This document shows, in pieces, positions 40,049 through 64,000 of a DNA stretch of 64,000 bases. The notes beneath the pieces are model-generated. The model was not told where the DNA came from and ran no database searches. It worked only from the letters and a program-made list of their open reading frames with translations. Position 1 is the stretch's first letter; every line of letters begins with the position of its first letter. The stretch spans positions 35,269,422 through 35,333,421 of the forward strand of contig CM059570.1 in NCBI GenBank assembly GCA_030386875.1, given 5' to 3'. The translations under genes and the position numbers were made by a program. This DNA comes from Morinoia aosen. Its lineage: Eukaryota > Arthropoda > Malacostraca > Amphipoda > Talitridae.

Positions 40049-40245
40049 GAGCCGTATATTAAATGTCAGCCGTATATGTCAGCGTCCCGTATATTGAAGG
40101 TTGTTCTGAAAGAGTCCAGCGAATCTTAAAACCATTCATTGTTAAATTGGCTTTCAAATCTTCGAATACAATAAAAAAACAGCCTAATCAGACTTAAAGA
40201 TAAACGATAGAATTGTGAAAAAAGTTATCTTATATATAAATTATA

Positions 40246-40520: not shown

Positions 40521-40557
40521 TGCTCATCAGTCGCCCTTGATCAATGATTTTCGGCTT

Positions 40558-41429: not shown

Positions 41430-41819
41430 TAAAAATTAGCACGTTTCGATCATCTAGATCATCATCAGCTATGGTCTGAAATTCAAGAAATGACAAATTA
41501 AGACCGGCAATAAAGACCATTCAGTAAGTAATATAATAATATGTACACAAATGAAAATTAAAAAAGAAAATTACGTAATACCTATTTTCAATGGATAGGA
41601 TGACTGCATGTCATTAAGGTTAGGTTTCAATCTGCTAATGAAGAGGGATTCAAGAATGCGTAAATTAAAACACGAATCTGCAGAACCTAATATTGAAAAA
41701 TTTTCAAGTGAGATAGTTGTATTGCATTTTTCAGCATGGATTCTAATAGCTGAATGGGAAGGCCTACTTAATGGAATACCAGTCCTAAAACTTCTACCAC
41801 TGTATTCAAATACCCTCAT
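41430..41819 (-). mobile_element. second Penelope-like fragment (3' end, minus strand)
   Basis: It comprises the end of a GIY-YIG endonuclease frame (41819-41571) and then, downstream on the same strand, CTGATGA (41469-41463), a GATC-loop-GATC stem and GAAAC (41448-41444). The order endonuclease end, then hammerhead-like core, is the normal arrangement of a Penelope 3' terminal repeat. The 5' part is missing. Confidence 0.75.
41571..41819 (-). pseudogene. C-terminal part of a Penelope GIY-YIG endonuclease
   Basis: The frame has 82 codons on the minus strand. Residues about 22-80 contain SAIRIHAEKC, the ISLENFSILGSA block and RILESLFISRLKPNLND. Together these are the conserved C-terminal region of Penelope-type GIY-YIG nucleases (H, then NF.IL, then ILESL.I...KP.LN). 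The catalytic GIY-YIG start is not present: upstream codons run into a stop about 11 codons before the first ATG. It is a truncated relic, and the + strand frame overlapping it is a shadow. Confidence 0.8.
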
Positions 41820-44800
41820 AGATAGCGACCGAGATGTCGAACCGACTTACACAGCTTTAAAGCTTTGCCGTGTTGTGCAACCTAATCTAATCAAATATCT
41901 TTTTCAGTACTAAAACTTAATTCCATGGAAATTTAGAACTTCGAGAACTTTCTGACACACCGCCCTCAGGGGAATACTGTTTGGTCACCTCAGCTATAGT
42001 TGGGCCTTCGTGACTCCCATCAACCGTGCCCGCTTGGCTTCTTTTAGTGTTCATGTTTTCTTCACTATATCTACTGATGTCTTTTCTTCCCCTTCCATCC
42101 TAACTCACTGTTTATATTATGAGCTGGGTATCTCGTGTGGGGTCATGAATTGATTCCCTGTTTTGCCATGGGAAATTCAAAAGTCCATTCAAAATGATTC
42201 CTTCTCTTCGCTCTCTTCGGGTTGTCTTTGTTGTGGTAAGAAAGTCTCAAACAAACATAGAATAACAAGAATAATAACGATATATCTTTCAAACGAAAAC
42301 ATTAATTTCAATTACCAGCTTCAATTCCACAATGACTATCCTTATTTCTGAAGGGCATTAGAAATTATTCATATCGTTTTCAAACTGGAAATATTTCGTT
42401 GAATAGTTTACACCCTGTTGCTCATTATTTCTATAAGCAACATGATTAAGTGATATCTTAATGTTCCGTTGATGAGGAAATAACTTCGTCTTTTAAATGT
42501 TAATCGCTTATTTCAATTCCGTTTCAATATATCAGCTAGACGTTACTCTCGTATTTCCCTCCTTCGAGCCCAAACACCGGCACTCAAATTGCACATCATG
42601 AGAAATAACAGCTGTTTGAATCTGTATTCTCTTAAACTTTCATAAAACGACAGAATAATGTGCATTCGGAAAAATTTATCATTTCAACGAACGATCTTTA
42701 AATCGAGACGCAACAAGTGAACAAGGCAAGGCACAACACTACACGTCACAGGCAGGTGCAGGCAGCCGCCGATAGATCGAACACTGTCCTTGTGAGCGCA
42801 ACAAAGATCGTCTGTGAGGCTCCATTAGAGTGTTTGGCTAGCCCAGCTGAGGGTGGTCAGTCTAACTCATCTTTTTGTTGGACATATCGAGATCGTAATT
42901 TGCGTCGGCATCTTTCATTTGTGTTCTACGCAAGGGATTCTTTTTAACAGATTACAACGTGTAAAGTATGCTCAGTTCCTTAACTACATTTTTTCAAATT
43001 AGACTACTGTTTCATTCATTATATAAGGTGTGGTGTAATCATTTTTGACTTTCTAGCGAGTGAAATGCATCTCAAAAAATTGCTTGATCCACACTATGCA
43101 GCTCGCAATAGTTGTAGTTGGCTCGAGTGAGGGTTGTTAAATTTGTCTCAAGGTTTAGTAGTTGCGGTTGTCATAGTGTTTTTCGTAATCATTTGGAGGT
43201 GATTTTTTAGAAACTAAACTGTATCATGTGCAGAGAAGCGAATCTTGAAATTATAATTTGTGCTTAGTGCTTGGTGTCAACTTTAAGCAGACACGTAAAA
43301 TATTACTGTATTATATACAGTATTACTAGCTAGCGCTGTGACAATTAGGTGATGCAATGGGAATGAAAGACATACTCCTAATTTTGATAACGAACCAACA
43401 AACTAATCTGTTGCTTTTTGTTAGTTTCTTGTGTCTTGATTCCTCAGCAAGAGCAATTTTCACCACTTGGTCACCTCGACTAACATCGTCTGCACTTAGA
43501 GGCGACCAATTGAGGCATTCATTGCATTGCATTGCTCGTCTTGCTGGCCAAATTGCTGTCGAGCCTAATTTTCCTCGCCGCGGTATCCCTTCAATTTGGT
43601 ATCCATTCATTCTCTGTCTCCTCCCTCTTACTGTTTAATTGAGTAATGCTAACTTGAAAGATCTTCATTAAATCATTATCTAACTCGCTACGAAGATGCT
43701 CATCTCTTTTCCTAGGCATTAATGCCCAAAAATTTTTAGTGCCGATACTCTGTATTCGGGAATTATTTTACTTCCTAATTGTTATGAGAAAATCTGAACA
43801 ACCAGACATACGATTTAAAAATTATTAACTGCGCACTGGTTAATTGTTGCTCCCTAAAAAGTGAATGGGCTTGTTTTCCTCCATAATTGTAACAACAAAT
43901 CTAATTTTTAAAGAATAACTTTGTTTTCTGTCATACCAGTTTTCAATATACATATGCTGCAGAAAATAGATCCTGTCACTTTTCTTATATTTGAATGGGT
44001 ACGAAGAGATGAAATTTATAGAAGTTACTGAGTAAAGGCATTTCTTTAAAGTATGGGCAAATGAACTCAAAAATTCAGAAGTTATTCGTCGTTAGTTGAT
44101 GTAAATTTAAGGCTTCTAAAAGCCTCATTTTTATTCGATTATTTCTTTTTGCACTAGTGGGTGGATCGTGCTGCTATTACATAAGTCTTTGCAGGCTGTC
44201 ACTGCAACTCCATTGGGAGTATTCGTGATTACTGTCGAACTTTCTGCTGTTATTTTTCATACGACACTGCAATGCATCTGGGACCAACACTCTAAAAGCC
44301 TGAATTTCTGATTTAATGAAGTTCGTTCTCTGAAAAAGTTTCTCCTTATTTTGCCACTATCATGCAAAAGAAATATACAGTTTAAATTCTCACGCGCCGT
44401 CACAACTGAGCTTGTGTTTTCCTTGAGCTTTTTTCGCAATAAAAAGATGCGATCTTTTGTTTGCATGCATTGTCTCAGTAGCCTCGATTGTTTGTTGTCA
44501 CCTGCGCGCGCGAGCCGTCGTTGCCAAAGCCGAACCCAAACTTTCAGTTCATTACTTTGTGGATAAATACTACTTTGAATACTGTGTGTATATTTGACAC
44601 TGATAAAATTTCAAGTACATTGCTTTGAACATATTTAGCCTGAACCCATTTTTGCCAAAACATTTGCTAGTTACAGTACAAGTTTAAATGCAATTAAGTG
44701 TTTTTTAAAGAAAATTGTTCTCAATAGATGCTTGTTAGAAAAAATATTACTAAGTGAACTACAAAATCAGTTATTTCACATGAATGTATGTAAACTGGAC

Positions 44801-46756
44801 TATTTATTTGTGAAAGTCAAGCTGCAGTCAAAATTTACTATTATTTATAAAGTAACCAGGACTGTATTCTTGGTTAGTGTTAGTACTATGACCGGAGTGA
44901 GTGTTAGTATTATGCTAAAATGTAAAAAGAACTAAAAAATCGACCTAAGAAACCTTCGTCGAAGGTATAATAGCGTACGTCAAGATATGATTGCTATGTT
45001 CTAAATTGATATGTAAGCTAAGAAAATTACATGTTAACCGACAGCTCTACAAAAACAGTCATTAATAGATAAGTTTTCGATGAAATTCGTAAAAGTTTTA
45101 ATTCTGTTTTGCTGTTCATGACGAATAAAATTCTGCACAAATTATTCTTTGAAGTTTGCAATGGCAATCTGGAGCAAACGTACAGAATTGCTAGTTGATG
45201 ATTTCCACCCTGCATTGGTCACATTGTCGTCCACAGTGGCCTCTATCATGAAATCTCTCGAATGTAGAACACAAACCCGTTGCTCTTCGTTTCAGTGAAG
45301 TATTGGGGCTACGATAAGTCAAGACATTGTCTTGCATTGAGTAAGAAAATTAGCGCAGTCTGTGCTGAGTCATTTCGTCACCGAATAATCCCAGAGATTC
45401 TCTCTCTCTTCGAGGGACGCATGTTAATTTCTGTGCTCTGCGCCAAAACTTGGTTTTCGACTGCACGTTGCTTCTATCCGCTCGTTTTATTTTTTCCCTA
45501 TCATCGTCCCCAGGGAGCTTGAATTATTGACTAGATTTTTTGTCCGATTTACATTAATTTATATATAAAGTTTTTTTTCCCTTTTTATCAGTGCGTACAG
45601 TAAAAAAATCGTCCAAGACACCGATACTTGACTAGCAAGCTTGACTAATCTTGCTCAGCACAATGTGTAGAGCTCATAAAACTCGCTGGTCCTAATCTTA
45701 ACGACGGAACGTTGCCTAAAAAGATTATGCAAGAAGCAGTGAGCTCACAAATGTGTCTGGTTTTTAATTCCTTTAAAAATATAATATTTTCAGATGAATG
45801 AAAGAGCAACAGTGGAGTAAACGGGCATAATTTGTCTGTAATAATTCTTCGTAATCTACGATCAGCTTGATGTGAATATTTGTGCGAAGTCATCTTGCTA
45901 GAAGTGAATATGAATTAACATAGGAAAACATTGATATAAGTTCTAATTCCAAGGGCACTGCGATGGTCGGAGCGTTAGTTTCACGTTCCACAAAGCCTTC
46001 ATACAAGTGCCAAAAGAAGCAACATATTTTGATGAGAACGATTGATGAAGTTTAGTTTTTTGCTCTCGTCAGAATCACACAGTATTTTGACTTAATATTC
46101 ATATCCAACTCTGGAAATAGGTCTTTTGTTTCATTTCGGTCTTTAAGTACTTTGATGACAGAAATCATTCGATTACATTTAATTCAATGTTTTCACTCCA
46201 CAGAACTGTAGCAGTAAGTCATACTCTAATCCTATGCTAACACACATCACTGTGCAGAGCCTTACAGTGAAATAGAGCAGAAGATTTGGCATTAACTTAC
46301 CTTTTCACTTTAATCTCCATCATTGAAATTTATTCGCTAAAAAAATTTCTCATTCATTAGATAATTTCGAATTTATTAGTTACATATTTCGAGCTTAGCA
46401 GAAAATCCCGTGCTCGTTAAAAAGGCCCTTAAGCTCCGTACTTAACAAGAAAACGCTGATTTTGATGTTCTATTTTCGTTTCAAAATAATTATTCATACT
46501 GAAAATACACGGAGACGATTTCATTAATTTTTATCTACCAAACATTTAAATCCTGGAAGCTCAGGTGACTCGTGTTATGGTAACGAGGACACTGACGGTG
46601 TCAATATCACTGGAAGCTTAATCTTGAATTTCATCTCACATAAAGTCCCACTTATTCTTCGATTTATTCTGAATTTATAAGACTAAAGTGCTTCAAAATC
46701 TTGGCATTATTAGCCCGTTTAATTTGGTGCGTCAGATTGAACTACACTGCTGAAAC
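41820..46756. other. gene-free stretch upstream of the tetraspan gene
   Basis: No coding exon could be supported. A GC-richer patch at 42700-42900 contains a donor-like CTT|GTGAGC at 42792. Just before the start codon, TTTAATTTGGTGCGTCAG at 46715-46732 could be a splice acceptor for an upstream non-coding exon, or an initiator region. Confidence 0.4.
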
Positions 46757-46813
46757 ATGGGCTGCTGCTCGTCTGCACGCACCACCGTCGCTGGCGTGGC
46801 GGTGTTGCACTTC
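46757..46813 (+). CDS. tetraspan gene, coding exon 1 (start, TM1 first half)
   Basis: ATG is at 46757, followed by 19 codons reading MGCCSSARTTVAGVAVLHF, then a consensus donor GTGAGT at 46814 (phase 0). The next exon supplies the rest of the hydrophobic segment. MGCCSS fits the N-myristoylation pattern (Gly2, Ser6) with Cys3/Cys4 available for palmitoylation. A second GTGAGT lies 29 bp downstream and would introduce extra residues. Confidence 0.75.
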
Positions 46814-49800
46814 GTGAGTATCCTGTGTGTGTCGTGTGTGTCGTGAGTATCGTATGTCGTGTATTCAATATAATGATTTTGGTACTACACGTACTACTGC
46901 AAGGAAAGATTAGTGATGATAAAAGCTAAAACCCATTATCAAGTAATGGGATTCTGTTATAATTTTATTGAGAATGAATGTAGATAATATAGGGGAAAAG
47001 ATGTTATCTAACGAGATGATACAACGGTATGCATGCGTGGCATCTCAGACCACCTCATTTCATAGAGAAGATAGACTAGTGAGGATGAAAATTTTACAGT
47101 GAGAAGCTTGTATTTTTCTTCATAGGAATGATACTGAAGGACCTGATTCTTATTTAATTCGTGACAGATTTTCCTACTTCGGCCTTACTGATGTAGGCAC
47201 ACTAAGTTTATTAGATATTTCTGCCAACGTTGAGAACGCTTTATAGTGACTATGATTTGTCTCAAGTTTTGACTCAATAGTCAAAAATCTTGACATTGCA
47301 ATGAACTTCTTACCCAAATGGAATATAAAAACACACTAATCGAAAGATATAAAACCTGACCGTGCGTTTCTAACTTGTTATAACTGTGATGAAGAAAGTA
47401 TTATGAAGTTTTTATCGTGCACTAAATATTGTCACATAACTAGAGCTGTAGTCTCACGAACGACTCAATTTTCAGTTCGGAGCTCTTGGCTGCATTGGGC
47501 TGTGCAGTTACTTGCTGTCTCTCGAGGGCCCAAAACTCGAGCAAGTCCTCACTCAGTCCTGGACGCTCCTGACCACGATGCACCTGCCCGTTGTGGTCGA
47601 CGCGGACGGCAACGTTGTCTCGAACCACACGCGTTCCAGCACCGAAGCTGTCGCTTTGGGCAAAGGGAATGTGTCCCACACCCGTCCCACTGGGAGAAGT
47701 GCTTACGATGTACAGCCTCTTCTAGAAAAATCCGACCTCAAGCCTCTTCAAACTGAACCACCTGAAATTTTAGTTTCCGATGAGTTTTTGCGGAACGACA
47801 ACGGAAGTGCTGAAGTTAATGTAAGTTCTGTAGTCAGCAGGGACGCTAGGATCCTGGAAAGTGATGATGACTTCTCCGACGCTATCAGAGCGATTCCGTT
47901 AACGACGGAATTGCATCCAGTTGACGTAACGACAGAATCACCTGACATTGAATCTAGCGAATCAAAAAGTGACTTAGATGATTATATTACTGATAATATT
48001 CCAGTGGTTTACGGAGAAACAGAATCATCCTACCAAAATTTAACAAGTGAAAACTCTTCATTATCAATGGAAAACGAGAACATTACTGAAGCACCACTTA
48101 TTGACTTTTATGGCTTACGAAGGCTAGATGAATTGTTCTTTACCTCGGTTTCTACTACTGAGGATACGAATGCTATAAGTTTAAATTCTGTGAGTTCTAT
48201 TTTGTTTGTTGACGAACCTGATCATACGATAACCAGCATCAGTACCGAGAGTACTGATACCTCTACCGATGACTTGAACAGTAGCAGTCATGTGACTGAA
48301 GCAACTCAAGTTGCACCTCCACATTATGATGAAACGACAACATCCTCACCCAGCAGCAGTGAAAGGAGTGATGTCGAGACAACCTCCGCGTCCCCAAATA
48401 ATCCTCCACTCGATTTCACCAATGAAGAAGACCCTCTAACATCGACAGAATTCATTCCCGTTTCTCCCCACACTCCGAATCTCGAGGGACATAGTACCGA
48501 ACCTGCGAGGCTTGGAACAGGAAACTCTTTACCGTAAGTTGTGTTTACGTTAGCGATCGTTATCATTAAAAGTAAATGAATAAACTACTAAGCTACTAAT
48601 TGAATATGAGGTGTATTGGCTCCGAAACTATTATCAGCCTGTGTATAGCCTTGTTTAGTATTCTTAAAATGGGCCAAGTCTCGTGCTTCATTTGTTTTCC
48701 ATTAAATCATGAAACAAAATAAAAACTTCAGAACGAGTTCCAGCTCATATTTGTTCTTCAATGAGAGCTTAATCTTCTCAAAACACATGAGAGAAAAGTC
48801 TGGCTCTACGCTCGTATAAATACAGTTGTTCATAAATGTCTTAAAAATGAAATCTGCCGATCTGCTGGTATAATATTCTCTCGGCTTCGATAAGCAACTA
48901 AATTCAATTGGACTTTCAGATGTGCGAAAATGGAGACTCGTATTATACGCGTTGACTGCGTATTGATATATGTATTGGCGCAATGATATATGCATCATTA
49001 GGTAAATTTCTCATTGGCGCATCGGTGTAAATGAACAGCATTTCAATTATTTCAACAATTTTCAGGAAAAGATTTTGGCATACGAGATAAAATATCAGCG
49101 TGCTGTTATATTTTTAACAATTCTTAGAAAACATACAAGTTCTTTTCGTGCAGTGAAGTTGTTTTTTTTTAATATATTACTTACAACCTAACTTGAACAT
49201 CCGTAGCAACCGCGCAAACGAAGTCGACGCGTTAAAATGTTGACTACGATGGGTTAAGCTGAAGTTCAATATTTAAATCACATTTAAAGTAAAAAATTGT
49301 TAGCAATTTTAATAATACCAAACATTATCTGGTGTCCATTAAATACCATTAATATGAAAAGATTGTCAAAATTTTTCAACCGATTGGTCGTTTCGCAGCA
49401 GGAAAAACTCAAGCGCGACCCATCGATGGGTCGTGCCGCAAGTAACGTGTTAAAGTGCATATTTTGGAATGAAATTCCGCACATTAGTCTCTAACTATGC
49501 AAGAACATACTGTTAACATTTTGGAGGAAGACCCATCATCTCATTTTGAAAATTCCAATATTATTTCTTCGCGCTTCAATTTATTAAATGCATGATCTCA
49601 GTAATGACTTTTATTTGTGTGTATTTGCATCAAGATTCATGGTATAACTAAGACTGTGTAACTACGACTGTTTTATTCCTAATGAATTCAACTAATAGAG
49701 GAATTCGTATTCGTTTCTGCTGGACTAAATTATTTAAATTTCTGTATCTAAATCAGTAGATTTTGCATCCCTATCTCATCCAACTGTAGGTAGGCTAAAA

Positions 49801-52800
49801 CTAATTTGTCTAATCTAATCTAATCTAATCTCATTCGACAAGGGTAAACATTGCACATATGAACGAGTTTTGTTCTGTTGGTTACAGGTATTGAAAATTG
49901 AAAATTTTTAATGAATTACTGATGCAAATTAAAATATTAAAACGAAAACTAGCTCCATATTTATTTAAATTCAATTTTGGAGCAGGGGGAGGAGTTTAAC
50001 ACTGTAAAAATATATAAACTCTTAAAAATTAATAAACACTGTAAAAATATTTTTTCCTAATAAAATAACAATTTTCACACAAGCTAAATGACTGGCAACG
50101 ATCGAATTATAGTCATTTGATGTTCATCAACGCTTCAAAAGTATCAGGATTTTGACTTTCAGGTGCGTAAGTAGTTGCCGGAAGGTCTGACTTCGGAATT
50201 AAGGAGAACATACAAGGCCTTGTAACAGTTTCTACAAGGTTCATGTTTCTCTTCGTTCCCGCAGATCCACAGCAAGAAGTCCAAGCACAAGTACCGGTAC
50301 TAGCTCAAGCCTCAGCACCGTCACTAGTACGGCCAGTTCTACGCAAGACTCGGAAACTACAGCACCCTTAACATCAGGTGGATATGTTGATACACGCTAG
50401 GCTGTTGAGTGAAAGTAAACTATAGTCAGTCGCTTGCAAAACCTGTCTGACTTCTCGCATGCCTACCATGATCGTACTTCAATCTTCCTTATTTCCGATC
50501 TCGTGTATAGCTGAACTCTCAAGGTCTGTAAGGTCTGTAACTCTCAAGCGTCTGTAAACATTTCTCGAGATCTGTAAGCCTGTAAACACGACGGCTTTTA
50601 AACTAACCGTTCCCGTACAAGGCAATGCTTCTTTAGCCCGCGGATGAACTTTACGCTTGTAATACTTTTAATATGAGTTTGAGAAACAGATAATCTCGGA
50701 CAAAGTTGGCCGCATGTACATTAGCATTGTCGCACTGGAGGGACACACAGCGAATGTGCAATGATGGGCTAGAAACTCGAATAGCTATTTAGTGTTGAAG
50801 TTTCAACTGTATTTTTTTGTAAATACGTCACATCAAACTTTCTCTGATAATAATCTAAAGCTTTCCTCAATTTTCGTTGATGATAATTAGTAGGGAATAG
50901 TCGTTCGACCACAGAATACTGTGGTTCCTGCATTCCCATGAAGTTTATTCTAAATTAGATAGGAAAGCTATTCCGAAGTTCAAAATCAGTCCCACCCAAG
51001 GATCAATATTAACTTAGGGCCTACTGGATATTCCTTCCTCACACTTAACAGCTACACCCTGAATATCGATCAGTTGTTCAATACATTCAATAAATACTGT
51101 TCACTTTAAATCAATATTTACTTCAAATGTTTAGCTCTTGGAAACAATTTTTTATTCGCACACGTGCTTATTATAATAAAACTGAATTATTTTTACTTTT
51201 ATAGGCAAGTTTCGAGAATAGGTGTAGAAAATTTCTGTTCGGAAAACCAAAATTCCAAAAAGTCGGACCAAGACTCGGATGGGACCTGACTGACAGTCTA
51301 GAATATAACGTCAAACAGTGAGGTCTGTCTGTCTTGGGACATTTTGCCACGAAGGCCTTACTTGATGTTACGATAATTGTGCGGAAAAGGAACTTTGTTC
51401 TTCTGCTAAGGATTTTTTGTCTGGGTTGATTCATGCATGTCCGCGTCATAGGACCCTGCTTCTCAGAACACAGGCACTTTGAGACGTCAGTGGCAAGGTG
51501 CCCTCCTTGTGATACCAAAAGGAAAATTTAGATTGCTTCAAGCGACCTTTGAAATGTTTTAGCCAACTACTGGTGCAAATCAGCTAAAGACCAGGTATTT
51601 CATACATTTCATTAGAAGGGGACACTCTTGCAAAATTTCCCTGATGAAATTGTTCAGTTATCACGATATAAATTCGCCAATTAATAAAAATATTTTTGCT
51701 TGCAGTTTTCAGTACGTCATCACTGCCTTCCGCCGAAAATACTACTACCTTGGCGCTAGAAGCGTTACCGTCAGCGCTGCCGCTCCGATCGCACAACGCT
51801 GCCACGTTTGTACTTATATCTTGAGCTTTTCAAATACAACTTAGTTGAAGATGGCCCTTCAGTTAGAAAAGTAACCCAACCATGAGAGCAAATGAAAGAG
51901 ATTGGGTATGGAATAGATTGTATGTATGAGAGCTTAATTAAGAAAGGCAGCTATTTAACACCTAGTCTATGGTCAATAACGTATTTTAATTCGCACGTAT
52001 CGATATTTTATGAGATCAAAAATTATTTGTAAAACCACCAGTGGCGATGCTCACTATTACTTCGGAAACTTTGATAGAGAAACAAAATCAAGACATGATC
52101 TGGGAAATATCACGCGACGACAATGACAACATAGACTGAAAGAAACAACACCATGTAGTTATAATAAGTGAGCATCGCCAATAGTGAGTAATAATAATAT
52201 AATAATAGTAATATGCTTACAATAGTAATAGTGAGCATCGCCACTGGCGGTTTATAAATGAATTTTGATCTCATAAAATATCGATACGTACGAAATAAAA
52301 TATTTCGTTGACAATATACTAGGTGTTTAATTGCTACCTTTTTAATTCAGCTTAGCTTTTTTTGCACAGACTTTATATGTAAGATAAGTCTAGCTCCATT
52401 TTGTCAGAGATATCCCATATCTAACTAGAATTTTGAGATAGATATGTTGCTATGTTAGATATTGTCATGCCACGCATTAGAATAACAAGAACAAACTTTA
52501 ATCTTACGTTTGTGCGGGTCAAATAAGCATAATTTACTCGATAGAGGGGTAAAATAAAGTGTGAAGTGTAAAAAATAAAAACTTGAAATGTCAAGGCGAA
52601 TCAACCTTTTGGCCACCCAATTCTCATGATATGATGCCCATAGACTTCTACCTTTAAGGATACCGAAAGTTTTGTTTGCTAAACACCTGTTCCGTCCGAA
52701 GAAGAACTTATAAGCAGAAATATTGGTGTCAGTCCAAGGAATGCTAAAACTTCTGATGCAAGGGTTCGCCAATCATTCCGCCAGCGTCTCCACACATGCG

Positions 52801-55800
52801 TCGCAGCAGGTGGGCGGAATTTCGACAACAACTTGTGATTACCAGCCCAACGTATTTGAACTTTGCATTCCCTTTAAGTGAACCAATCCAGAATTTCATT
52901 TCTCTCATTTACCCGACGACCAGCTCTCACTGAAAAGTTGTTGTAATTTTTAAACTAAATATTTTTGAATATCATTCCACTGAGTAAATTGTGCTTATTT
53001 AACCTAAAGGAAGCCTAGGTTAAACTTTATTTAAATAAAATTGAAATACCCTGTGTGTGTACACCAGTTTTACGCTAAATTCAATCCTTCTCCTAAACAA
53101 ACTGTATACACTCTCCGTATACTATATATAGGCCCCAAAGATGCTCTTTATAAAATTTAATTGATATCTTTGTGAAAATTAGTACAATATGAAGCATAAG
53201 AAACAAAAGAAATCTCACTAATAGAAAATTAAACATAAGTTCGCTAGATTTTTTTACATATGCGAGAAAATTTCCCAATTTACCTTGCGAACAACACAAA
53301 GACTGCTGAAATCCAATTTTGTAACATGGATGAATGCTAAGAAATGCATGTAGGTTCACCTGTGAGCAGGTACAGTCACCTGGTGGTGGACGAGAACAGT
53401 AGTTCAGCAGACGTCGACCCGTCTGGCAACACGTCTAACATTTCTTCGGCCGAGGAACCGTTCACCATCACAGTGCCACCCATCATCACCACCACGGGCT
53501 TCCTATCCACCCTACTCACCTCCGGCTCAGGTCCTTTATTTCTCTAAGTATATAGTATTTCTACGTGAAATAATGTATACTTAGTTGGCTGCTTTGCATT
53601 TCAGAACACGTTCTTTGAATAAATCAATTGTTTTAGTGAGGTGACACTGAGTAAATTTTCGTACGGCTATTATCGAAGTGCCAATGTGATTGTTACCATT
53701 AAAATTCATTCGTTTTAGAATATGGTTCTTTGATAGCACATTTTAAGTTACTCATATTTCAGAACAAGTTTTGAAAAGAAAAACTTACTCAAGCTAATCT
53801 TGCTAATTGGAGTCATGTCTGAAGCATATTTTTATCTAGCTCAGCCCTAAATATATATGAGTGTATTTTTCAATACCGTACCACCAAATAATCTTTGTAT
53901 TCTCAAGTAGTACAATCTTGAATTAATTTTTTAATATCTCCCATGAATTGCACTTTTAAACAGCTCAGTCATTAATGAAGCTTTTTACAAATTATCTTTC
54001 ACGGTAACCTTCCTTCGTACCACTCAGAAACGCGAAAAATGTAAAACACTCTCCATCAGTATGCGATACACCCTTTTTAACTATACTAACTACAGCAGTA
54101 AAAAATTACAGAATTCATACCGGCATTCATAACAAACGTAGACAAAAGATGGCAAAGCTCACTGTCCCCGGCAGACTCAGAAGGAGACCCTGAGTTGGAG
54201 TCGCTGCTGTTCGAGTTGCGCGCGGGCGCGAGTGTGCTGGGGCTGCTGGTCTACTTCATCGTGTGCGCCATCGCTGCGGCGCTCCTCATCGCTGCTGCCA
54301 TTTGGGTCAGGAACGTTCAATAAGAATTGAACATATTGTTTAATGCTGATACGCATCATTTCTACGTTGCAGGACGAGAAAGAATCATATTTTTCTTATG
54401 ATTTGTGTTTTCCATTTGTTCCATAAATCGTAATCTTGTGGCGTATTTCTGTGTGGTGTTTTATTTCTGTATTTTCTAATCGTGCATACTAAAATTGAGC
54501 AATAATAGACATTTTTTTATTTGAGTTTATCATTTTGTAAGCTTTAGTGTCGAAAAATTTAAGCTTTTGAATTTCCAACATTTCAGCGCGTATGATGGGA
54601 AAAAGGACTCAGAAGCTATTGTTTGTAACGAATGTCTCCTTTTAACTTAGTACTGCGTTAGAGTTTTCGAAAAATAGGCCAAGGCCTCTCTTACCTTTTG
54701 GTCTCCTTTTCCTAATGCGATCGAGATTTCGAAAAAATAATTCAATCAGTTCTATAGTTGTACATGAGCTCAAGTGAAATTCGACTTTTTAAACCTTTTT
54801 TAACAATTATAATCACGCTGTGCAGAGGCTTGGAGGGCTGATGGTGCCCTGGCTAGTCATGGAGTGGATCTCGGTGTTCGCTGCTATCACTGCAGTGGGC
54901 GTCCTCACTTGGGTGGGGGGATGTTATGTTGCTTCAGACCGTATACAATATACATTAATAGCTTTACTCAATGGGCTCCATTGAATTAAGCTGCGTTGGA
55001 TTTCCCTTGAATTCATTTTTATTGCCCAGGTTGATCGAGAGAGCTGCTTAGGATACCTCATAAATGAACTCTTTACCGTCCAGACGGTATACAGTATACA
55101 TTAATAAGAGCCCATCGAGTAAAGCTGCATTGGATATCTCTCAAAAGAACACTTTACCGTCTAAGTTGTACTCAGAGTAATTAATAGGAGCCCATCGAGT
55201 AGAGCTGCGTAGGAAATACCCTAAATTAACCGTTGACGGTCTAAGTAGATTTCAAAGTTCACATCTACGAAGTGTGTCAACGCATTTTCCTTTTTGTGGA
55301 ATTTATATCACAACGCGGTCTATGAAGTTTACTGCCATGTGGCAGTTCCTTTACATTCTAACAACATCAACATCTCCATGCATTTGCTTAACTAATAATG
55401 TTGGTAGTAATAACAGTATTATGGGCAAAAGAGAACAGTCGGCGAAGAGTTAACCGAAGTATCCGATCTATAAAAGCTGTTAATCTCGCTCGTTGTGCTC
55501 GACTATCTCCCTGCTTACACCACTCACCACCTGCTTATGGATTTCATGCAGCTACTCATCGTTTGACTAAAAAATTATGATTGATGACCGTGGTCCCAGT
55601 CTTTTGCTATTATGAGACGGTAAATAGCTTGCCGAAGACTTGTTGGAGAGCCTGGAAGCATGAAGTTCTTTTCCGTGAGCAGACTGTTCTTTCAATAAGT
55701 TTGACTTAGTAGAAAATACGCTCTAGAACATTTGTTTGTTCGTTCATTTGTACATCTCTGCAACAAATAAATATTAACGGAATGATATAACTCGTAAACT

Positions 55801-58800
55801 GTAAATACCAATGCAGTGTGCATTTTGTATATACTTTAAAAAGAGCACAAAATGTATAGCGTACAACGAAAAGTATACGTAGTGTCGTGTATACATTTAC
55901 ATAACTCTTTGTTAATTTTGTATTGTCTAGTGACATGTGTAGAAAGTGCAATTTGTATGCTGTATTACATATACAGAGGAGTTTTATTCGTTCTGTGTAC
56001 GCGTTACAATGTTATTTTCTCCTCTCAGAGGATTTGCTTAGGACAAGGAAATAAATTGACTGGAGAACGAATCTTAACATTCAGCAGTCAATTGTCATTG
56101 ATATTGTTAAAATGGGGAAAATTATTTGATGTAAAATATATCATGTATCTAAATTAGGAAACACAGCTTAATATTTTCCAACCTAATGCCATCATTGGTG
56201 TTTCAGAGGCTGTTAGTTGAAGGCGTACTGTTATGGTGCTGGTGGGTGGTGGTACTATGTACTGCCGGCGTGGTGGTACTCATCTTGTGTCTGGTACTGG
56301 TACTCGAGGCGTACCAAACTCTACCATACGAAGCGACCTGCGATACTACAGACTCTTACGAGATGCAATACGTCACTGTGAGTATGAGCTAAAAGAGGGT
56401 TTTATATTCTATCATCTCCAACATTCATTCCATTGATTTCAGTGAAATTTAAGAAAGGAATTTTTCTGGAAACATCATATCTGTTGATACTTGCTCTTGC
56501 ATTAAGGCTCGTGCTCGTGCATATTTCTAAATAAATATGCTCGTGCATACCTATAGCTTTGAAATTACTTGCTCGAAAAAATATTTTCGTTTGTTTTTTG
56601 CTGTGGCTATTCATTTAAAACTCTAATTATGTACATACTGTATATTTAAATGAATGAAATACTTTGAGTTGAACTAACTCAGAAAGTTTCATTCTGTGTA
56701 CAGTAATGTTTTCTTGCCATCTTCTTTATTACCTGGTAAAATTTGTGGATAATTATCACTCATCCTTAAAGTAAAACGTATTAGATGATTGTAAGACGAC
56801 TTGCGCAATGCCAAAAAAGAATGAGTTTTAAGGTAACGCTCAGTTACTAAAATTACGATTTTGGTCATTTTCGAGCGATTTGTTGACAGCTTCTCGACTG
56901 TCTGTTTTAACCACAAAAGTGGCCACTATAACTGAAGACTCACTTCCCTTTTTGGTCCTCGGAAAGTGCTCAAGTTCTCGTTACGCCACTGACGACGGGA
57001 AACAAAATAACTAGTATTATTAAATTAGATTTATGTGCAATACTATAGAGGTGGTGAGAGAAATGCTCCATATTCGCCGAGACCAGTAAAATGAAACTTC
57101 CATTAAACCTGTACATTATATCGGGTCAGTTGCGGTTGTTAACAATAACCATCATGGAGTAAAAAATCATGTTGAAAATGTATGAAATTAAAAATAAAGA
57201 AGTTAGATAAGCTAGGAGCGAAGTCAATTTCCTTTGGTCATATTAATTACAGTTTGAAAACGAAGGGCTCGCACAGAGATAGGTGGTTGCGTGTAATTCG
57301 CACTTCCCAACCTGCCTAGTTGCGCGGTGAACACAGTCTGAAAAACCAAAGATAATCAGATATATTTTTCTTAAACTGTAATCGGAGGCAAAAATTTGCC
57401 CTTGATTGCCAATGAACATTGCTGTTAGCATGACGTTAACATCGAGACTGTATTCATTCATCATGACCAGAGCCCGGATTTCTAGCATTTATTATATTAA
57501 TGCTATAACGACTATAAATGCAAATAAACAATGGCATTTATCGCACAAATTCTATTTTACAATGAAGGCTATTTTGAATAGGCACAAAGGCAAAAAGTAG
57601 TCATTATGCAATAAATGACTATAAAATCTGCAAAAAGTAGTGATAGACGAAGAAGACGTTTATTTAAAACAATGGAAATTTGTCGAGATGTTAAAAATGG
57701 CCTCAATTTATGCTGATCCTTTCCAGTTTGTGTCCGATGCGCTTTTTCTTTTGTTATCTCAGCATTTGCGTTCAAAAAGTCGGCTTGTGAAAAACATTAT
57801 CAGTTTTGACAGCAATACATGAAAGAAAACTATTGAATTGTAGCCAAAACTTGCAAAATTTTCTGTGTTATTTTGCTACAAATGAGAACTATTTTGCTAG
57901 AAATAAAAACTAGTTTGCTAAAATATCGACAACATCAACTTTTTTTAGTGCTATTTTGACCATATTTTTTGCGCTATTTTGACCACTCTTTTAGGACTAA
58001 AAATCCGGCTTCTAATCATGATTGTATTCAATCATTATGACTAAATTCAATCACAGTGTAGGCAGCAAGCTCGAGGCTATTTATCGAATGCACATTAGAT
58101 TAGCTTTAGATTCGGTTCGTCCGCTTAAATATGCAGCAAGATATTTTTTGCGTGATTGTTCCTGAAGCAGAAAATGAAGTAATACATAGTTAAAAATAGA
58201 CGATTATGGGACACCAATCCAAGAAGATACACTAAAAAATTAGCGTTTCTGATTGGCCAGGTCACATCACTTTCCCTATGCCAGATAATGAAATTAAATT
58301 CAGTATTCAATTGAAATCACTCAATTATCGAGGAAAAACTTCGAGTTAAAAATACTTCTTCGTTCGCATAGTTGTACTCTCTTTGATTCACGGTGAGTAT
58401 TTATTAAGAGATCGTAAGCGTGTGTAGCATTAGCATTGACTGTTTTAGTTATCATTGTCGTGCTTTAGATTTTAAAAAGCAAGATCGTAAAATCTTCCAC
58501 GTCAGATTTCGCAGATTTAACAACAGTGGCTGACCGGATTCACTGGACGAATCAACAGGTCTGTCAGGCTTCACAAGAGCGTACAGGTTTTATTTCTGAT
58601 TAAAAACTCCAGAGTAATGAAACAGCAGAATCACATTAAGGCTACGTTCTCTTCTGTATATTTTGTAACGTGCTTGTGAGGTCGATATCAGCCTTTGGGA
58701 TAATCGTTTGAATTCACATGTCCAAGAACTGTTGCGTAAACTTTGCTTTTTATCAACGGAAGAAAATTGGGTTAAAGGTATTGCAAACTTCAAGGCTTTA

Positions 58801-59645
58801 GATTTGAATAAAAAAATCATTGAGTACTCAGTACTAATAAGGAAGTAAATGATGTGCCAAAGTATGTAATATTTCTATTTTCCAAATAGAATTATCGATA
58901 GTTAATTGTGTATAATCGCATGATTTCATTTTCAACGCTTCAAAAACTACTTGGATGTTTTGTTGAGTCTGAAAAATCAATCTGATTTTGTACGTTGAAC
59001 AGTTTTCTATGTATATGTGCGTAGTGCCTCCCTTGACATATTTGATAAGACGCTACCTCCTCCAGCTTGTGTACTGCATACGGGACTTGCCCTAGGCAGT
59101 TTAGACTCTCAAGCTTCAGTGTCCCGAGTAGAAGTTCTAAAGTTAGAGTCACGATTTGTAGTATTTCGAATTGCGCGGCGTTTGTGTCACAGTCCTCGGC
59201 TAGTAAAACATGAAGCACTTGTGATGCAGAATGTTTTCGGCTTGTAGATTCGAGTCTCCCGATACGGTTAAATCAGAGAACTTGAACCATTTCAGTTCAA
59301 AGTCAACTTTTTGCACCAGAAATAATTGTGAATCACAACACTATTCAGAGTGTGTTTGCATGTTACGTTGTGCTTTAAATACTGGGCATATTCCTCGAAG
59401 AAATTGCTGCGTTTGTATTTTTGAATGTTCATTTCAGATAGAAATAAAAATGTGGACTCTGTCTCTAGGTCACAAACCTCCCTTAGAACTATACAGCAGT
59501 CTTCTTTCGTGTTTCATACGTGCTTGTCGATAAGCTTTCCGTATATATGTTTTTTAGTCGTCTCTATGATAGATTTCTGTAAATGGTGCTTTTTGTATAT
59601 ACTTACAATAGATGTTTGTTTACTCACCAGGATAAGAGACGGTGA
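46757..59645 (+). CDS. four-transmembrane protein with giant mucin-like first loop (spliced, 7-8 coding exons)
   Basis: The join is 46757-46813, 47476-48533, 50265-50377, 53354-53530, 54175-54305, 54826-54912, 56207-56377 and a short last exon at 59631-59645. The first seven exons total 1794 nt, 598 codons, all phases agreeing. Residues 1-8 are a cytosolic MGCCSSAR head. TM1 is about 9-34. Residues about 36-487 form a Ser/Thr/Asp/Glu-rich loop with about 11 N-X-S/T sequons. TM2 is about 488-512, TM3 about 517-541 and TM4 about 548-574, followed by a short tail (EAYQTL onward). Cys-Cys plus RT before TM1, PWLVME in TM3 and the YQ.L after TM4 recall insect tetraspan families (DUF4728, Pasiflora-like, LAPTM4-like). 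That comparison is from memory. Function is unknown; a glycosylated plasma-membrane or junctional protein is an inference. Donors of exons 3-6 are non-consensus, so details may change. Confidence 0.7.
47476..48533 (+). CDS. tetraspan gene, coding exon 2 (TM1 second half and mucin-like loop)
   Basis: The acceptor is CAATTTTCAG at 47475 and the donor is consensus GTAAGT at 48534; phase 0 in, phase 2 out. The exon gives 352 codons starting FGALGCIGLCSYLLSLEG, which completes TM1. The remainder is acidic and Ser/Thr-rich without hydrophobic segments, with sequons at NHT, NVS, NGS, NVS, NLT, NSS, NIT and NSS. It is the longest open frame of host origin in the window, and its composition differs clearly from the random frames around it. 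Confidence 0.85.
48952..49235. mobile_element. TTAA-type MITE, family 2, copy 3 (in intron 2)
   Basis: The left end reads TTGACTGCGTATTG (TTAA decayed to TTGA). The interior TTAGGTAAATTTCTCATTGG and ACAACCTAACTTGAAC match copies 1 and 2. The right end, GACGCGTTAA, closes at the TTAA 49232-49235, which is also the left boundary of the adjoining family 1 element. Confidence 0.65.
49232..49453. mobile_element. piggyBac-type MITE, family 1, copy B (in intron 2)
   Basis: TTAA is at 49232-49235 and 49450-49453. The left end is AATGTTGACTACGATGGG and the right end CGCAAGTAACGTG. The interior matches copy A, including CATTAAATACCATTAAT and the GACCCATCGATGGGTC palindrome. The total is 222 bp, and it is slightly longer than copy A through internal insertions. 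Confidence 0.75.
49811..49830. repeat. TAATC microsatellite, 4 units
   Basis: This is a perfect short pentamer array inside intron 2. It is not the insect telomeric repeat (TTAGG). Confidence 0.8.
50265..50377 (+). CDS. tetraspan gene, coding exon 3 (Ser/Thr-rich loop)
   Basis: The acceptor TCGTTCCCGCAG ends at 50264, with phase 2 in. The 113-nt exon encodes STARSPSTSTGTSSSLST-like residues, continuing the mucin-like character of exon 2. The donor CAG|GTGGAT at 50378 is weak. Reading through instead gives a stop at 50398-50400, which would yield a shorter protein with no TM2-4. As modelled it leaves in phase 1, which matches exon 4. Confidence 0.65.
50378..53353 (+). other. intron 3 of the tetraspan gene
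   Basis: This 2976-bp intron contains a hairpin MITE (51930-52355). Minus-strand open frames at 51171-51518 and 52455-52772 are unrecognised and unsupported. Confidence 0.5.
51930..52355. mobile_element. hairpin MITE with ~145-bp inverted arms (in intron 3)
   Basis: Arms at 51930-52075 and about 52205-52355 are inverted copies. The outer ends are AGCTTAATTAAGAAAGGCAG and its complement; the inner parts share CACCAGTGGCGATGCTCACT and its complement. The centre is AT-rich with TAATAA runs. The segment has no coding capacity. Confidence 0.8.
53354..53530 (+). CDS. tetraspan gene, coding exon 4 (loop, symmetrical phase 1-1)
   Basis: The acceptor ATGTAG at 53353 was chosen because it fits phase 1 from exon 3. 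An alternative acceptor, GAGCAG at 53369, would fit phase 2 and so join exon 2 directly. The 177-nt exon encodes Ser-rich sequence with sequons NSS, NTS and NIS, then a Pro/Ile/Thr run ending LLTSGS. The donor CAG|GTCCTT at 53531 is weak, but the next in-frame codons hit a stop. Skipping this exon would keep the frame. Confidence 0.65.
54175..54305 (+). CDS. tetraspan gene, coding exon 5 (TM2)
   Basis: The acceptor CCCCGGCAG ends at 54174; phase 1 in, phase 0 out. The exon encodes SEGDPELESLLFELRAG followed by the strongly hydrophobic SVLGLLVYFIVCAIAAALLI. The GC-rich codons stand out from the AT-rich surroundings. The donor TGG|GTCAGG at 54306 is non-consensus. If unspliced, the frame ends six codons later at TAA 54321-54323. 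Confidence 0.7.
54826..54912 (+). CDS. tetraspan gene, coding exon 6 (TM3)
   Basis: The acceptor CACGCTGTGCAG ends at 54825. The 29-codon exon, phase 0-0, encodes RLGGLMVPWLVMEWISVFAA and the rest of a membrane helix ending LTW. GLM-PWL-ME is the segment most reminiscent of the insect tetraspan families. The donor TGG|GTGGGG repeats the TGG|GT arrangement of exon 5. The exon can be skipped without a frameshift. Confidence 0.7.
54940..55250. repeat. tandem repeat, ~75-80-bp unit, about 4 copies (intron 6)
   Basis: Units contain ATTAATAGGAGCCCATCGAG and AGCTGC(G/A)T(T/A)GGA, with starts near 54953, 55030 (diverged), 55100 and 55178. Each is followed by a TTTACCGTC(T/C)AAG-like block. It lies in intron 6 (54913-56206) just after exon 6. 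Confidence 0.7.
56207..56377 (+). CDS. tetraspan gene, coding exon 7 (TM4 and cytosolic tail)
   Basis: The acceptor TTGGTGTTTCAG ends at 56206 and the donor GTGAGT at 56378 is consensus; phase 0-0, 57 codons. The exon begins RLLVEG, followed by WCWWVVVLCTAGVVVLILCL and then EAYQTLPYEATC and a Tyr/Asp-rich tail ending EMQYVT. Reading through the donor would add only VSMS and a stop, which could be an alternative end. Confidence 0.75.
56378..59630 (+). other. intron 7 of the tetraspan gene
   Basis: This 3253-bp intron has no further exon that I can support. A donor-like ACG|GTGAGT at 58394 has no matching exon. Confidence 0.4.
59631..59645 (+). CDS. tetraspan gene, candidate last exon (DKRR, stop)
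   Basis: A strong acceptor, TTTGTTTACTCACCAG, ends at 59630. In phase 0 the exon reads Asp-Lys-Arg-Arg and TGA at 59643-59645. AATAAA follows at 59822-59827, so a normal 3' end is possible. Alternatively, a donor ACG|GTGAGC after 59641 would make an 11-nt micro-exon that splices in frame to 62176. The two choices cannot be separated from sequence alone. Confidence 0.4.
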   Translation, partial: DKRR

Positions 59646-59676
59646 GCATGGGCCTGTAATGCTAACGGTAAGGTGC

Positions 59677-59701
59677 GTGTGTGTGTGTGTGTGTGTGTGT
59701 G
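59677..59701. repeat. GT dinucleotide microsatellite, 12 units
   Basis: A perfect (GT)12 follows GTAAGGTGC. It lies just downstream of the candidate last exon, in its possible 3' UTR. Open frames on both strands that run through it (poly CV or TH) are artefacts of the repeat. Confidence 0.95.
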
Positions 59702-59821
59702 CACAGCTTTTGCAGATAATGAGCACGTCTCGCGGCTTGCATTGCTCAGTTTGCACTCAAGTAATAGCTTGCATAGTCGCACGAAAATTTATACTTTCAT
59801 TAGCTTCTGAAATTTATTAGT

Positions 59822-59827
59822 AATAAA
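59822..59827 (+). terminator. candidate polyadenylation signal
   Basis: AATAAA lies about 180 nt after the TGA at 59643-59645. It is consistent with the end of the tetraspan transcript if the 59631 exon is terminal. A single hexamer in AT-rich DNA is weak evidence. Confidence 0.35.
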
Positions 59828-62175
59828 TACAAAGAGACGCATCAACCAACACGTCGGCTTCTTGTACCATCTGCACTATGAATAATTTTAGCGATTCTGG
59901 AGCAAACATGCAGCTGCGCAGAGCAGTTCACTAGTAGCGACAAGGTTGGCTGGTATAAAGAGAGCAGCATTTTTATTCCAATGCTAGTATTATGGTCGCT
60001 AAATTTTGTCCTAGTTGAATTTACAAAGTTAATGTTCCAAACGTGACAGTTTACTGCTCTGAATTGCTGCTCTGTTTTTTCCTTCTTTTTCTTTTTTTGA
60101 GGTAAGGGCTTATCTGTGTTGCTTGAGTCTGACGTACGAACTGCTTTAATATGAGTTGACTTCGTCCACTAACTAATGCTGAATCACTAGTATAAAAACT
60201 TCGATCTTTGTTTTAATGCCTCAACGAACCAAGTTTCACTGTAAACTCACCTTGCAACTACGAATCACGGATATTCCGCAGTTAGTTCGGCGGCTAAATT
60301 AAGAACTGACGAGTTATTAACGTATTCTTGAATGTATATGGCTCTATTAACACCGCTGTTAAGTTTATATATACATAACGACATCCTTAGCATGATATTC
60401 TTGCCCTTTGATTCATCTTACCTATGGAGTTTTTCTTCCCACCTGTTTTTTTCCTAAAGGTAAAATGCATTCTATTTAAGAAATTGCTGTACATTATGTT
60501 TCCATTTCAGCATGTTACTCTGATTTAATTGAGGTTTTGTGAAGTTTTATTCTGGCGAGGGAAATTTATTCTTGCTTTGTAATATTAAAAACCTCTCAGA
60601 AACTTTCTGCTATTGTATTTGTGAAAATAAGCGCTCCCAGGGGAAAGATGTGAGGTCCCGAGGTGAAGATTATGTAGACCTTCCTATCGTTAAATAGAAT
60701 AGGTTTTTGTTTTGTTACAGACCATCGTTTTCAGGTTCACTGTTTTCTTTCTTTCGCTGCACCTGCTGTTTTCTTCTTCCAATTTATCTTGTTGAATTCA
60801 TAGAGCCTTTTAATCTCGCTTCTTCTATGCGCAAGGTCTGGGGACGAAACATTTCTTGTACGTAGATTTCCGTTCACTTGATTCCTAACTAACTGGTGCC
60901 GTCCTCTCTTTTTAGGACCACATTGGTTGTGGTCAGGGAGGTGTAAACTACCTTATGATCTAATCTAATTTAGAAAAGAGTACTCAACGGATTAGTTTAG
61001 GAGTCCCCATATGACCGGAGGCATTAGCAGCGAGTGACCCGTGGGACAAAAGTCGGCGGCCGGACGCATGCAGGCTGTGTCTGGGATGAGTAGGAATCAT
61101 TCAGTAATCAATCTCACGGACATATTATCAGTGTATAATGGGATAAGTTTTATGTCTTGTACTAGTCTCGCGAAATATTTGCTTAGTTCTTAAACTTAGA
61201 GGACATTTGCAACAATAAAACGACCACTTAGCAGCTAATATAAAAAATATATGCTCAGAGTAGCCTACTGTTGAAGTGTTTCCAGTGTGTTGGAGTTCAT
61301 TACTAGCTGGGAGTGCTACATTGAGTATATTTATTTAGCACTTGAAAGCTCTTCCAAATAACTGCACGATGAGGTTTGTACCACTAATATTTTTTTTTTC
61401 CATGAACTGTGTTTCCTTACTAAGTATTTGACGGATCATCAAATGGCTTTCTCCAGTAAATTTGCGCACATGAGTGTTTAAATGGGTGTGGCAAATTGCA
61501 ACTATGCACTAAAGTGTGTTGAGTCTCTGAGCAAGTAAAATCATGCTCGCGCAACAGAAGCATTTTTTTCCGATCAAATTTGTATCAGCTTTTAGCCGTT
61601 GATGGTAAAATGGATAAATTTAAAATTAAGCTTTACTTAAAAAACATGCGACAAAAAAGACCTCCCGCGTAGCCACCACTGTCAGGAAAATTGGAATTAG
61701 GTTGAAAAAATTTCCGGTAATTTTGAAACTAGGTTTTCTGCAAGCAATATTACTGAAAGATTGTGATTCCCAAGTCAACTCCCCACTCGGCAAGAATGAG
61801 GGCTTCGATTGGCATTATTATTTGTTATTTCGCTCAATTACCAGATTTTTTCTTGCGGCGATTTTCAACAACAAAGCCAACAGTGACTTGCAATTTAATT
61901 TAAAACGTAAAAAGTGTTTTCAGCTACGTTTAAGCCCTGATTACTTTCGTCTTTCATACGATTTAAATTTTTTAGCATAAGTCGATGTAAAAAAATTCTC
62001 TATGTTAACATTCGCAAAGCCCGACACAAAGTTGAAGAAACCTCGACCCACTTTAGTGTATACTGCACCGAAGATGCAATCCCGTTAGGTAGTAACCAAA
62101 AACCTACGATGCATTTGAAAGTTCGAGTAATACTCGTAGAACGCTTTTTTATAACATTGTCTGTACCATTTGCAG
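59828..62175. other. gene-free stretch downstream of the tetraspan gene
   Basis: It contains the dispersed repeat at 60632-60745 and a short hairpin, GACCACATTGGTTGTGGTC at about 60922-60940. No coding exon is supported. Confidence 0.4.
60632..60745. repeat. dispersed repeat (second copy of 31859-31975)
   Basis: It begins GCTCCCAGGGGAAAGATGTG and aligns in the same orientation with 31859-31975. The similarity fades after GACCATCGTTTTCA. Confidence 0.6.
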
Positions 62176-62254
62176 CACAAGCATCTCTGGAGCACAGCGA
62201 AGTGAGCGGCTGCGCGAGTACTGGTGCGGCAGAGAATCTACCAACCTTCACTGA
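62176..62254 (+). CDS. possible alternative last exon of the tetraspan gene
   Basis: An excellent acceptor (CATTGTCTGTACCATTTGCAG) precedes 62176. Entered in phase 2 it encodes TSISGAQRSERLREYWCGRE and five more residues, ending at TGA 62252-62254. Entered in phase 0 it ends after nine codons. A phase 2 entry is exactly what an 11-nt micro-exon at 59631-59641 would provide. It may instead belong to another transcript or be a chance signal. Confidence 0.25.
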
Positions 62255-64000
62255 TGTTTTTACGTCGACGACTGTGCCGGTAATTGTTTAGTGTAGCCCA
62301 CTGGAGTGGATGGTCGTTTGATCCATATCCGTACACAGAACGCTTTTGAAGTTCCAGGTTTCAAATGGTTTTCGTTTCGGTGAAAACCTTAGTCGAACAT
62401 TTTTTATTTTATATCTAAGTAGGACTGAGTATTTAGTTTAAAGTCGTTGACAGTAACCCATATCTTAAAACAGCAGCACTTAAACCAAACCTGGTCAGAA
62501 CTCCAAAAAGTCACATTATCTCGGTTAAATTTATATCACTCTCAGATACATTTATAATTCACTTAGATACCAAAGGCAGTCACTCATATTTCATCTAAAT
62601 TTCTCAGGCGGTCGTGAGAATTTACTGAGGAAAATCTTTCAGAGCTTTTAAGGAAATCTGTCCAATACTTTTAAGACGTCCAAAACTCTACCAATTTAGG
62701 ACCACTTCAAATGCACCGTTATACGAGTGGAAGACTTAAAATACATTGGCTGCTGGCATGTCCATCAAACACTACAGATTCATTCACTTACAATACTATC
62801 GTTTTATTTCCATTTCCAAAGTTGTATGAACACTATCTCTCACTATGTAGATCTCGGAGACGTCGTAGCACATGCATTTTCGTATAGTTCTTGTAAAGGT
62901 AAATGTTCTCGATTCCTAACCGGCGTCTCCAAACCCTTAAAATCCCTTTTCTGCTCTAATTGTTCATCAAATGAGTCAGCAAACAATGGAACATGAATCT
63001 GCTGTTTCATTTAGCCTTCGAGTACATAGAGTATTAAAAAGAAACTGTACCTCAAGATCGTATCAGACAGCAATTAAATATCAGAATTCAGCAGGACTTT
63101 CTAGAACCCTGTTGCATGTTGTTAAATTGCTGTTTCGTTTTCACGAATTTTTGTATCAAGTAATACTGAGTCTCTAGAAATGTTGGAATTTTTCTAAGAT
63201 AACAAGAAAGCTTTCGTAGTCAATTTCAGGTGACAAACTAACAATCGAAATGAAAAACAAAAGATGGTTTGCTTCCAACTTTGTTTACAATTGTCTTGCA
63301 TGTTCATCACTTTTATTCTTTCTTAAAAAATATCTGCTAATTAAACTAAAATAACGCAGTACCGTTGCAATAGCTTATGGAAATACTTGGAAGCCTTTTA
63401 ATTATTTCAATTATTTTTAAATTTTATTTTGTTTTCAAGTAATTGTTATTCAACTCAAACTAGTCATTATCAACTTTAAAGCTAAGTTGTAAATCTCATT
63501 AGAAGCTTCAGCGAAATTTCATATTGTAATTATTGTCCTGGTTTCGAAAATAAGATGAGAAATCGAATGACTGGGTTCTGGAGGAATAAGAGAAGCAATT
63601 GATTCTGATTACTCGCGCACTCATTAAAGCTTTGAACACACGAAGCAACTGTGCCATTTAATAACAGAGAATGTGCTTCGAAAGTGAAATGTTTCAACTC
63701 CAATCGGCTCAACCGGTATAAATTCCATGACACTTCCCTTCTCCAACTTTTTTCAAAATTTGGCAATTGTGAAAGTCATGCGATTGGCGTGTAGCAGTTC
63801 TATAGAACTCAGTCTCAACTGTCTGTTCGATTATAATTATTGACGACCGTATGTGTCTTTTGAAGATTGGATTGTGAATTAGCATATATAAAATTCCTTA
63901 AGCCCAACAAAAGTATTCCCACGAGAGGAAGGAGTGTGGAATTAAGGAAACGGGGAAATTATGCAGATGTGTCCCCACGCCCTGTGTATAGAAACAGCAA
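62255..64000. other. gene-free stretch to the end of the window
   Basis: No gene, RNA or element was recognised. The frames are short and overlapping. Confidence 0.4.

Follow-up and report, generated by a model that had tools for sequence, protein, structure and literature searches.

In this work we analysed a stretch of 64,000 nucleotides (nt) from the amphipod Morinoia aosen (contig CM059570.1 of assembly GCA_030386875.1, positions 35,269,422 to 35,333,421 of the forward strand; hereafter called the window) and, within it, a locus on the plus strand that begins at position 46757. It seems that this locus is a real gene which very probably encodes a single protein with four transmembrane segments (TM1 to TM4), i.e., a tetraspan, whose first loop is unusually long and mucin-like. 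In its fuller form, which we consider fairly likely, our explanation is that this one gene encodes a diverged pasiflora-type tetraspan of the plasma membrane, whose mucin-like first loop is acidic and of unusual length. The observed basis for this is an open chain of exons, the composition of the loop, the hydropathy of the product and a Pro-Trp (PW) motif at the start of TM3. A preliminary description of the locus had already proposed a tetraspan whose first loop is long, acidic and rich in Ser and Thr, and this proposal is supported by the sequence.

Exons were placed by hand according to open frames and GT/AG borders and were then joined by a script; all numbers given here refer to exon joins predicted from DNA alone, and hydropathy was assessed only for the model of 600 residues. 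This main model consists of exons 1 to 3, exons 5 to 8 and the short last exon listed in Table 1, and forms a single open frame. Six of the eight exon chains tested were open, giving products of 557, 559, 600, 600, 602 and 628 residues from 7 to 9 exons. They differ in the use of exon 3 and of a possible exon 4, in the acceptor chosen for exon 5 and for exon 6, and in the end of exon 8, where the transcript is either spliced to a 5-codon exon or extended by four further codons through read-through. The two closed chains are those in which exon 2 is joined to the long form of exon 5, or exon 3 to its short form. In the three main alternatives (557, 600 and 628 residues) the loop between TM1 and TM2 amounts to 405, 448 and 476 residues, respectively, and the architecture is common to all six open chains (a loop of 405-476 residues, 11 or 12 N-glycosylation sequons, and 27-31% Ser+Thr in the main three). 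Thus, the exons join in frame as had been described, while the seven exons with 598 codons of that description were not recovered, the open seven-exon chains giving 557, 559 or 600 residues. Its start at 46757 holds: the open frame begins at 46754, therefore a stop codon directly precedes the codon before the ATG, whose context is AAACATGG. Its end at 59645 could not be confirmed and depends on the 5-codon last exon, which is one among several possibilities; the acceptor of this exon is matched or beaten by 3 other sites among the 427 AGs between exon 8 and position 63900, and the exon itself contains a strong donor at 59642. For exon 4, the donor at 51809 was ruled out because of its phase and weakness, and an end at 51805 is possible. 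The exon number, the use of exons 3 to 5 and the C-terminus of the gene model are provisional.

Several properties distinguish these exons from their surroundings. The open frame of exon 2 extends over 361 codons, and since stop codons make up 6.0% of the six-frame codons in the window, only 1.7e-6 such runs would be expected there in all six frames. The window contains 102 six-frame hydrophobic segments, and a GC content of at least 0.55 was found in only 4 of them, namely those of exons 6, 7 and 1 and a frame at 1360, outside the gene; the segment of exon 8 is the fifth by GC content (0.53). The hydrophobic stretch of exon 1 (19 residues) continues into the intron, as the exon ends at 46813 and the stretch at 46840. 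GC content at third codon positions (GC3) is 0.58-0.84 in the exons that encode the transmembrane segments, and the GC content of the introns is 0.33-0.37.

Table 1. Exons of the predicted tetraspan gene (positions in the window; the slash marks an exon border; percentages are ranks among AG or GT sites).
Feature	Position	Strand	Content	Frame, composition and splice sites
Exon 1	46757..46813	+	ATG, MGCC N-terminus, first half of TM1	Phase 0; GC3 0.84; donor GTGAGT, top 9.7% of GT sites
Exon 2	47476..48533	+	Rest of TM1 and the larger part of the loop; 352 codons; 8 of the 11 sequons	Phase 2; mediocre acceptor within the top 26% of AG sites; donor GTAAGT
Exon 3	50265..50377	+	Ser/Thr-rich loop	Enters in phase 2, leaves in phase 1; acceptor 10.8 bits, top 0.14%; donor CAG/GTGGAT, top 1.7%
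Exon 4 (possible, optional)	51706..51805	+	Ser/Thr-rich, one sequon	In frame only with short exon 5 (the 628-residue chain using it is open); acceptor top 5.9%; donor GTTTGT unscored, looks weak
Exon 5	53354..53530	+	Loop, 3 sequons	Alternative acceptor gives start 53370; frame kept by the long form behind exon 3 and by the short form behind exon 2 or 4; acceptor at 53354 1.3 bits, top 47%; at 53370 6.5 bits, top 5.4%; donor CAG/GTCCTT 2.6 bits, top 17%
Exon 6	54181..54305	+	End of loop and TM2; DUF7027-like jointly with exon 7	GC3 0.83; acceptor top 14%; alternative start 54175 better, top 1.8%
Exon 7	54826..54912	+	TM3 with PW motif, GLMVPWLVMEW	Acceptor top 16%
Exon 8	56207..56377	+	TM4 and start of C-terminal tail (VLEAYQTLPYEATCD)	Read-through of donor adds VSMS; stop then ends at 56392
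Last exon (proposed, uncertain)	59631..59645	+	DKRR and stop	Acceptor 8.8 bits

The first loop comprises residues 34-481 of the main model, i.e., 448 residues, in agreement with the gap of about 450 reported before. It contains 30.6% Ser+Thr, 7.4% Pro, 16.5% Asp+Glu and 4.0% Lys+Arg, which gives a net charge of -56, and in the 600-residue model it is devoid of Cys. The earlier view of a loop rich in Ser, Thr, Asp and Glu with about 11 sequons is thereby borne out: we counted 11 sequons in comparison to a mean of 6.2 in the shuffled loop, and 2.4% of 5000 shuffles reached 11. A domain is regarded as mucin-like when stretches of 100 residues hold at least 40% Ser+Thr and 5% Pro. This level was found in 87 of 501 windows of 100 residues, the first starting at residue 242 and the last at 382. 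We infer that the loop is disordered and both N- and O-glycosylated. One RxxR and one dibasic pair are present in it, and no Pfam domain was matched in the part encoded by exon 2. The only direct repeat of at least 18 nt in exon 2 is a single 21-nt pair, so that the loop does not stand out as a tandem-repeat mucin. Over the first 80 codons of exon 2, GC3 is 0.72 and 0.65, and it is 0.23-0.47 thereafter; the contrast between the GC-rich start of this exon, together with the GC-rich transmembrane exons, and the AT-rich remainder may reflect a core that is conserved and an insert under looser constraint.

The membrane part of the 600-residue model was defined by hydropathy. TM1 covers residues 9-35, and residues 477-580 form a nearly continuous hydrophobic block, which we read as three helices (TM2, TM3 and TM4) divided at exon borders. 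The tetraspan fold proposed earlier is therefore upheld as regards the four hydrophobic segments, while the division of the nearly unbroken TM2-TM4 block into three helices is a reading. The turn between TM3 and TM4 comprises only a few residues, with no Cys across residues 498-549. The N-terminus, MGCCSS, resembles a start suited to myristoylation or palmitoylation, and the C-terminal tail contains YQTL, which we take to be a possible endocytic signal. The position of the first hydrophobic segment behind a short N-terminus would also suit a cleaved signal peptide, in which case the mature product would cross the membrane three times and begin with a mucin-like domain on the outside. We find this quite unlikely, as 27 residues are more than is usual for a signal peptide and, according to the passages of PMC4582180 considered here, Pasiflora1 and Pasiflora2 (169 and 258 residues) possess four transmembrane segments and no signal peptide. 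A first segment of this length fits the pasiflora trait of lacking a signal peptide and having both termini inside.

Assignment to the pasiflora type is based on the layout and on the PW motif. According to the same passages of PMC4582180, Pasiflora1 and Pasiflora2 both conserve PW at the start of TM3, a motif common to the wider family; apart from CG13288, the seven further Drosophila members share nothing but PW. The predicted protein shares with this family (Pasiflora1, Pasiflora2, Fire exit and six further Drosophila members) four hydrophobic segments as judged by hydropathy, a larger first loop, and PW at the start of TM3 (GLMVPW, exon 7). Among the Pfam models, DUF7027 (PF22954) was the best for the TM2-TM3 stretch and aligned to constructs containing it with expectation values (E) of 0.0042, 0.012, 0.0062 and 0.00077, each time falling short of the cut-off; on core constructs it scored 15.9-19.8 bits versus a gathering score of 27. 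The alignment covers profile positions 39-88 of 100 and leaves TM1 and TM4 outside. DUF7027 matched none of 10 sequences shuffled within 11-residue blocks, which preserves hydropathy, where the best E of any model was 0.037. The pasiflora link thus appears to come from the layout and a two-residue motif, with the Pfam link as a hint. As to the earlier description of the protein as Pasiflora-like, the PW motif and, weakly, DUF7027 speak for it, while no model reached its cut-off.

The other families named in that description, DUF4728 and LAPTM4, found no support in searches with hidden Markov models. DUF4728 (PF15860) was noise, with 8.7-9.5 bits instead of the 26.7 needed and E of 2.1-3.7, although its alignment runs from TM2 to TM4 across nearly the whole profile; for the whole protein it was unlisted. 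LAPTM4, tetraspanin and claudin models gave no match at E up to 10 with the whole protein, TM2-TM4 or loop-deleted cores, where HMMER filters discard most matches above about E 0.1, though the listing goes to E 10. No match at E up to 10 was obtained for the TM2-TM4 part among PDB sequences, nor any for the loop-deleted core in NCBIfam, and a scan of bacterial and archaeal contigs with this core returned 85 pattern matches but no relative. Paralogues were sought among the 2144 six-frame segments of the window with TM1, exons 6-8 and the loop-deleted core as blastp queries, and the best match beyond the gene's own exons had E 0.50.

Claudins and PMP22 resemble the predicted protein in having four passes with the larger loop first. 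The first loop of claudins carries a Cys pair and a GLW motif, whereas the loop described here has no Cys, and no Pfam match to these proteins was found at E up to 10. Tetraspanins have a large second loop with CCG, in contrast to the short TM3-TM4 turn found here. A tetraspan with a mucin-like first loop appeared in none of the titles or abstract openings among the literature matches listed, subscription papers being mostly outside the scope of that search. If the loop is called expanded, the only yardstick is two published sizes, both from Drosophila. It may be, although we lean away from it, that a long loop is ordinary for the orthologous group, whose members may stand under names such as 'uncharacterized' or 'mucin-like' in insects, so that there was no expansion; this would be compatible with our explanation. 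The passages of PMC4582180 considered here contain no loop lengths for the seven further Drosophila members, which leaves room for such a view. On the other hand, they cite With et al. 2003 for a family of similar length and topology in both Drosophila and Anopheles.

A number of results count against a pasiflora-type tetraspan. No Pfam model reached its cut-off with any construct. For the whole protein, DUF7027 (E 1.6, 9.1 bits) stood behind an equally insignificant desaturase model (E 0.41), and neither the TM1 peptide nor the TM3-TM4 peptide matched Pfam. PW ahead of a hydrophobic stretch occurs 3 times among the 2144 six-frame segments of the window, including exon 7; given the two other places, the PW of exon 7 could be chance. 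At the TM4 border, VxSQYQ is found in Pasiflora1 orthologues and, shortened to VxS, in Pasiflora2 (PMC4582180), while the border between TM4 and the C-terminal tail reads VLEAYQ here, so that V, Y and Q agree and S differs. With 557-628 residues in the six open models and a loop of 405-476, the protein is not of similar length to the two published ones. The codon-GC pattern could come from local GC trends alone, and the GC3 of 0.71 in exon 5, which belongs to the loop, is contrary to the idea of a conserved core. Finally, splice sites are mediocre at the acceptors of exons 2, 5 (long form), 6 and 7 and at the donor of exon 5, although the donors of exons 7 and 8 score well; the weights used were general frequencies, not trained for this species.

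The latter point bears on whether two genes were mis-joined, whereby exons 1-2 (perhaps with 3-5) would encode a mucin-like protein of their own with a single span, and another transcript would contain exons 6-8. The joins, including that of exon 1 to TM2, were read from genomic DNA only, the sites between exons 3 and 6 are weak, and a donor-like AAT/GTAAGT (7.8 bits, phase 0) lies inside exon 2 at 47821; among the exons of this gene it would be in frame only with exon 7, exon 8 or the last exon, and TM2 would then be lost. Still, all exons lie on the same strand, the chain is open with matching phases at each join in 6 of 8 cases, exons 3 and 5 keep the Ser/Thr-rich composition, and TM1 completes the core to a four-pass protein. 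Moreover, no other open frame of at least 130 residues starts within 48534-59424, a region whose introns were not searched against Pfam. Taken together, we consider mis-joined genes unlikely.

If a single pasiflora-type tetraspan is encoded, we infer its splicing, topology, location and role as follows. Both termini would lie inside, with TM1 divided over exons 1 and 2, and the first loop would lie outside as a disordered, strongly acidic, N- and O-glycosylated stretch of about 400-480 residues. TM2, TM3 (with PW) and TM4 would make a compact membrane core with a short inside turn containing Arg and a short outside turn before TM4. By analogy with Pasiflora1 and Pasiflora2, core septate-junction components according to PMC4582180, this core might reside in the membrane of epithelial or glial cells, either alone or within a junctional complex. 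In the preliminary description a role in the glycocalyx, cuticle contact or junctions was suggested, which is likewise hypothetical. The long loop would then act as a negatively charged, sugar-coated spacer that distances or binds a neighbouring membrane or the apical matrix; the location may be junctional or apical, with the loop bridging a gap or keeping it open. The more specific scenario, that a septate-junction tetraspan of the pasiflora type gained an acidic mucin domain of ~400-480 residues and became a polytopic mucin which sets how wide or how charged the paracellular cleft is, or tethers the cuticle, seems rather unlikely to us. To our knowledge, the working mode of Pasiflora1 and 2 is still open. 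If our explanation is true, a relative with a huge, charged and glycosylated first loop would reveal what a pasiflora-type loop tolerates and could give a handle on barrier spacing or selectivity, although at present this is one predicted protein.

Some further features were noted in the introns of the gene and elsewhere in the window. Between exons 3 and 5, two 91-nt arms (51943-52033 and 52251-52341, 217 nt apart, 85% complementary) form an inverted repeat resembling a small foldback element. Imperfect tandem units of about 80 nt (about 55042-55258) lie in the intron that separates exon 7 from exon 8; a 39-nt part of them occurs in three copies with spacings of 81 and 80. Pfam scans elsewhere in the window covered the plus strand of 22000-31900, 37000-46755 and 59646-64000, plus three single frames. 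A decayed element of the LINE (long interspersed nuclear element) type lies at 19838-21665 on the plus strand, with a match to an endonuclease domain (PF14529, E 7.7e-7) and, in another frame, a 157-residue open stretch with no match. At about 40226-40345 (plus strand) there is a GIY-YIG-like stretch with stops (PF01541, E 7e-4, 20.3 bits versus a cut-off of 22.6), which we take to be possibly a decayed Penelope-like element. Matches below the cut-off were obtained for a TOP3B zinc-ribbon model at about 62889-62966 on the plus strand (E 0.0027) and for DUF7936 at 3944-4396 on the minus strand (E 0.0052). Irregular repeats with GGTACACTAATC..GGTGTACCTG-like units were seen, by eye only, at about 1650-1860.
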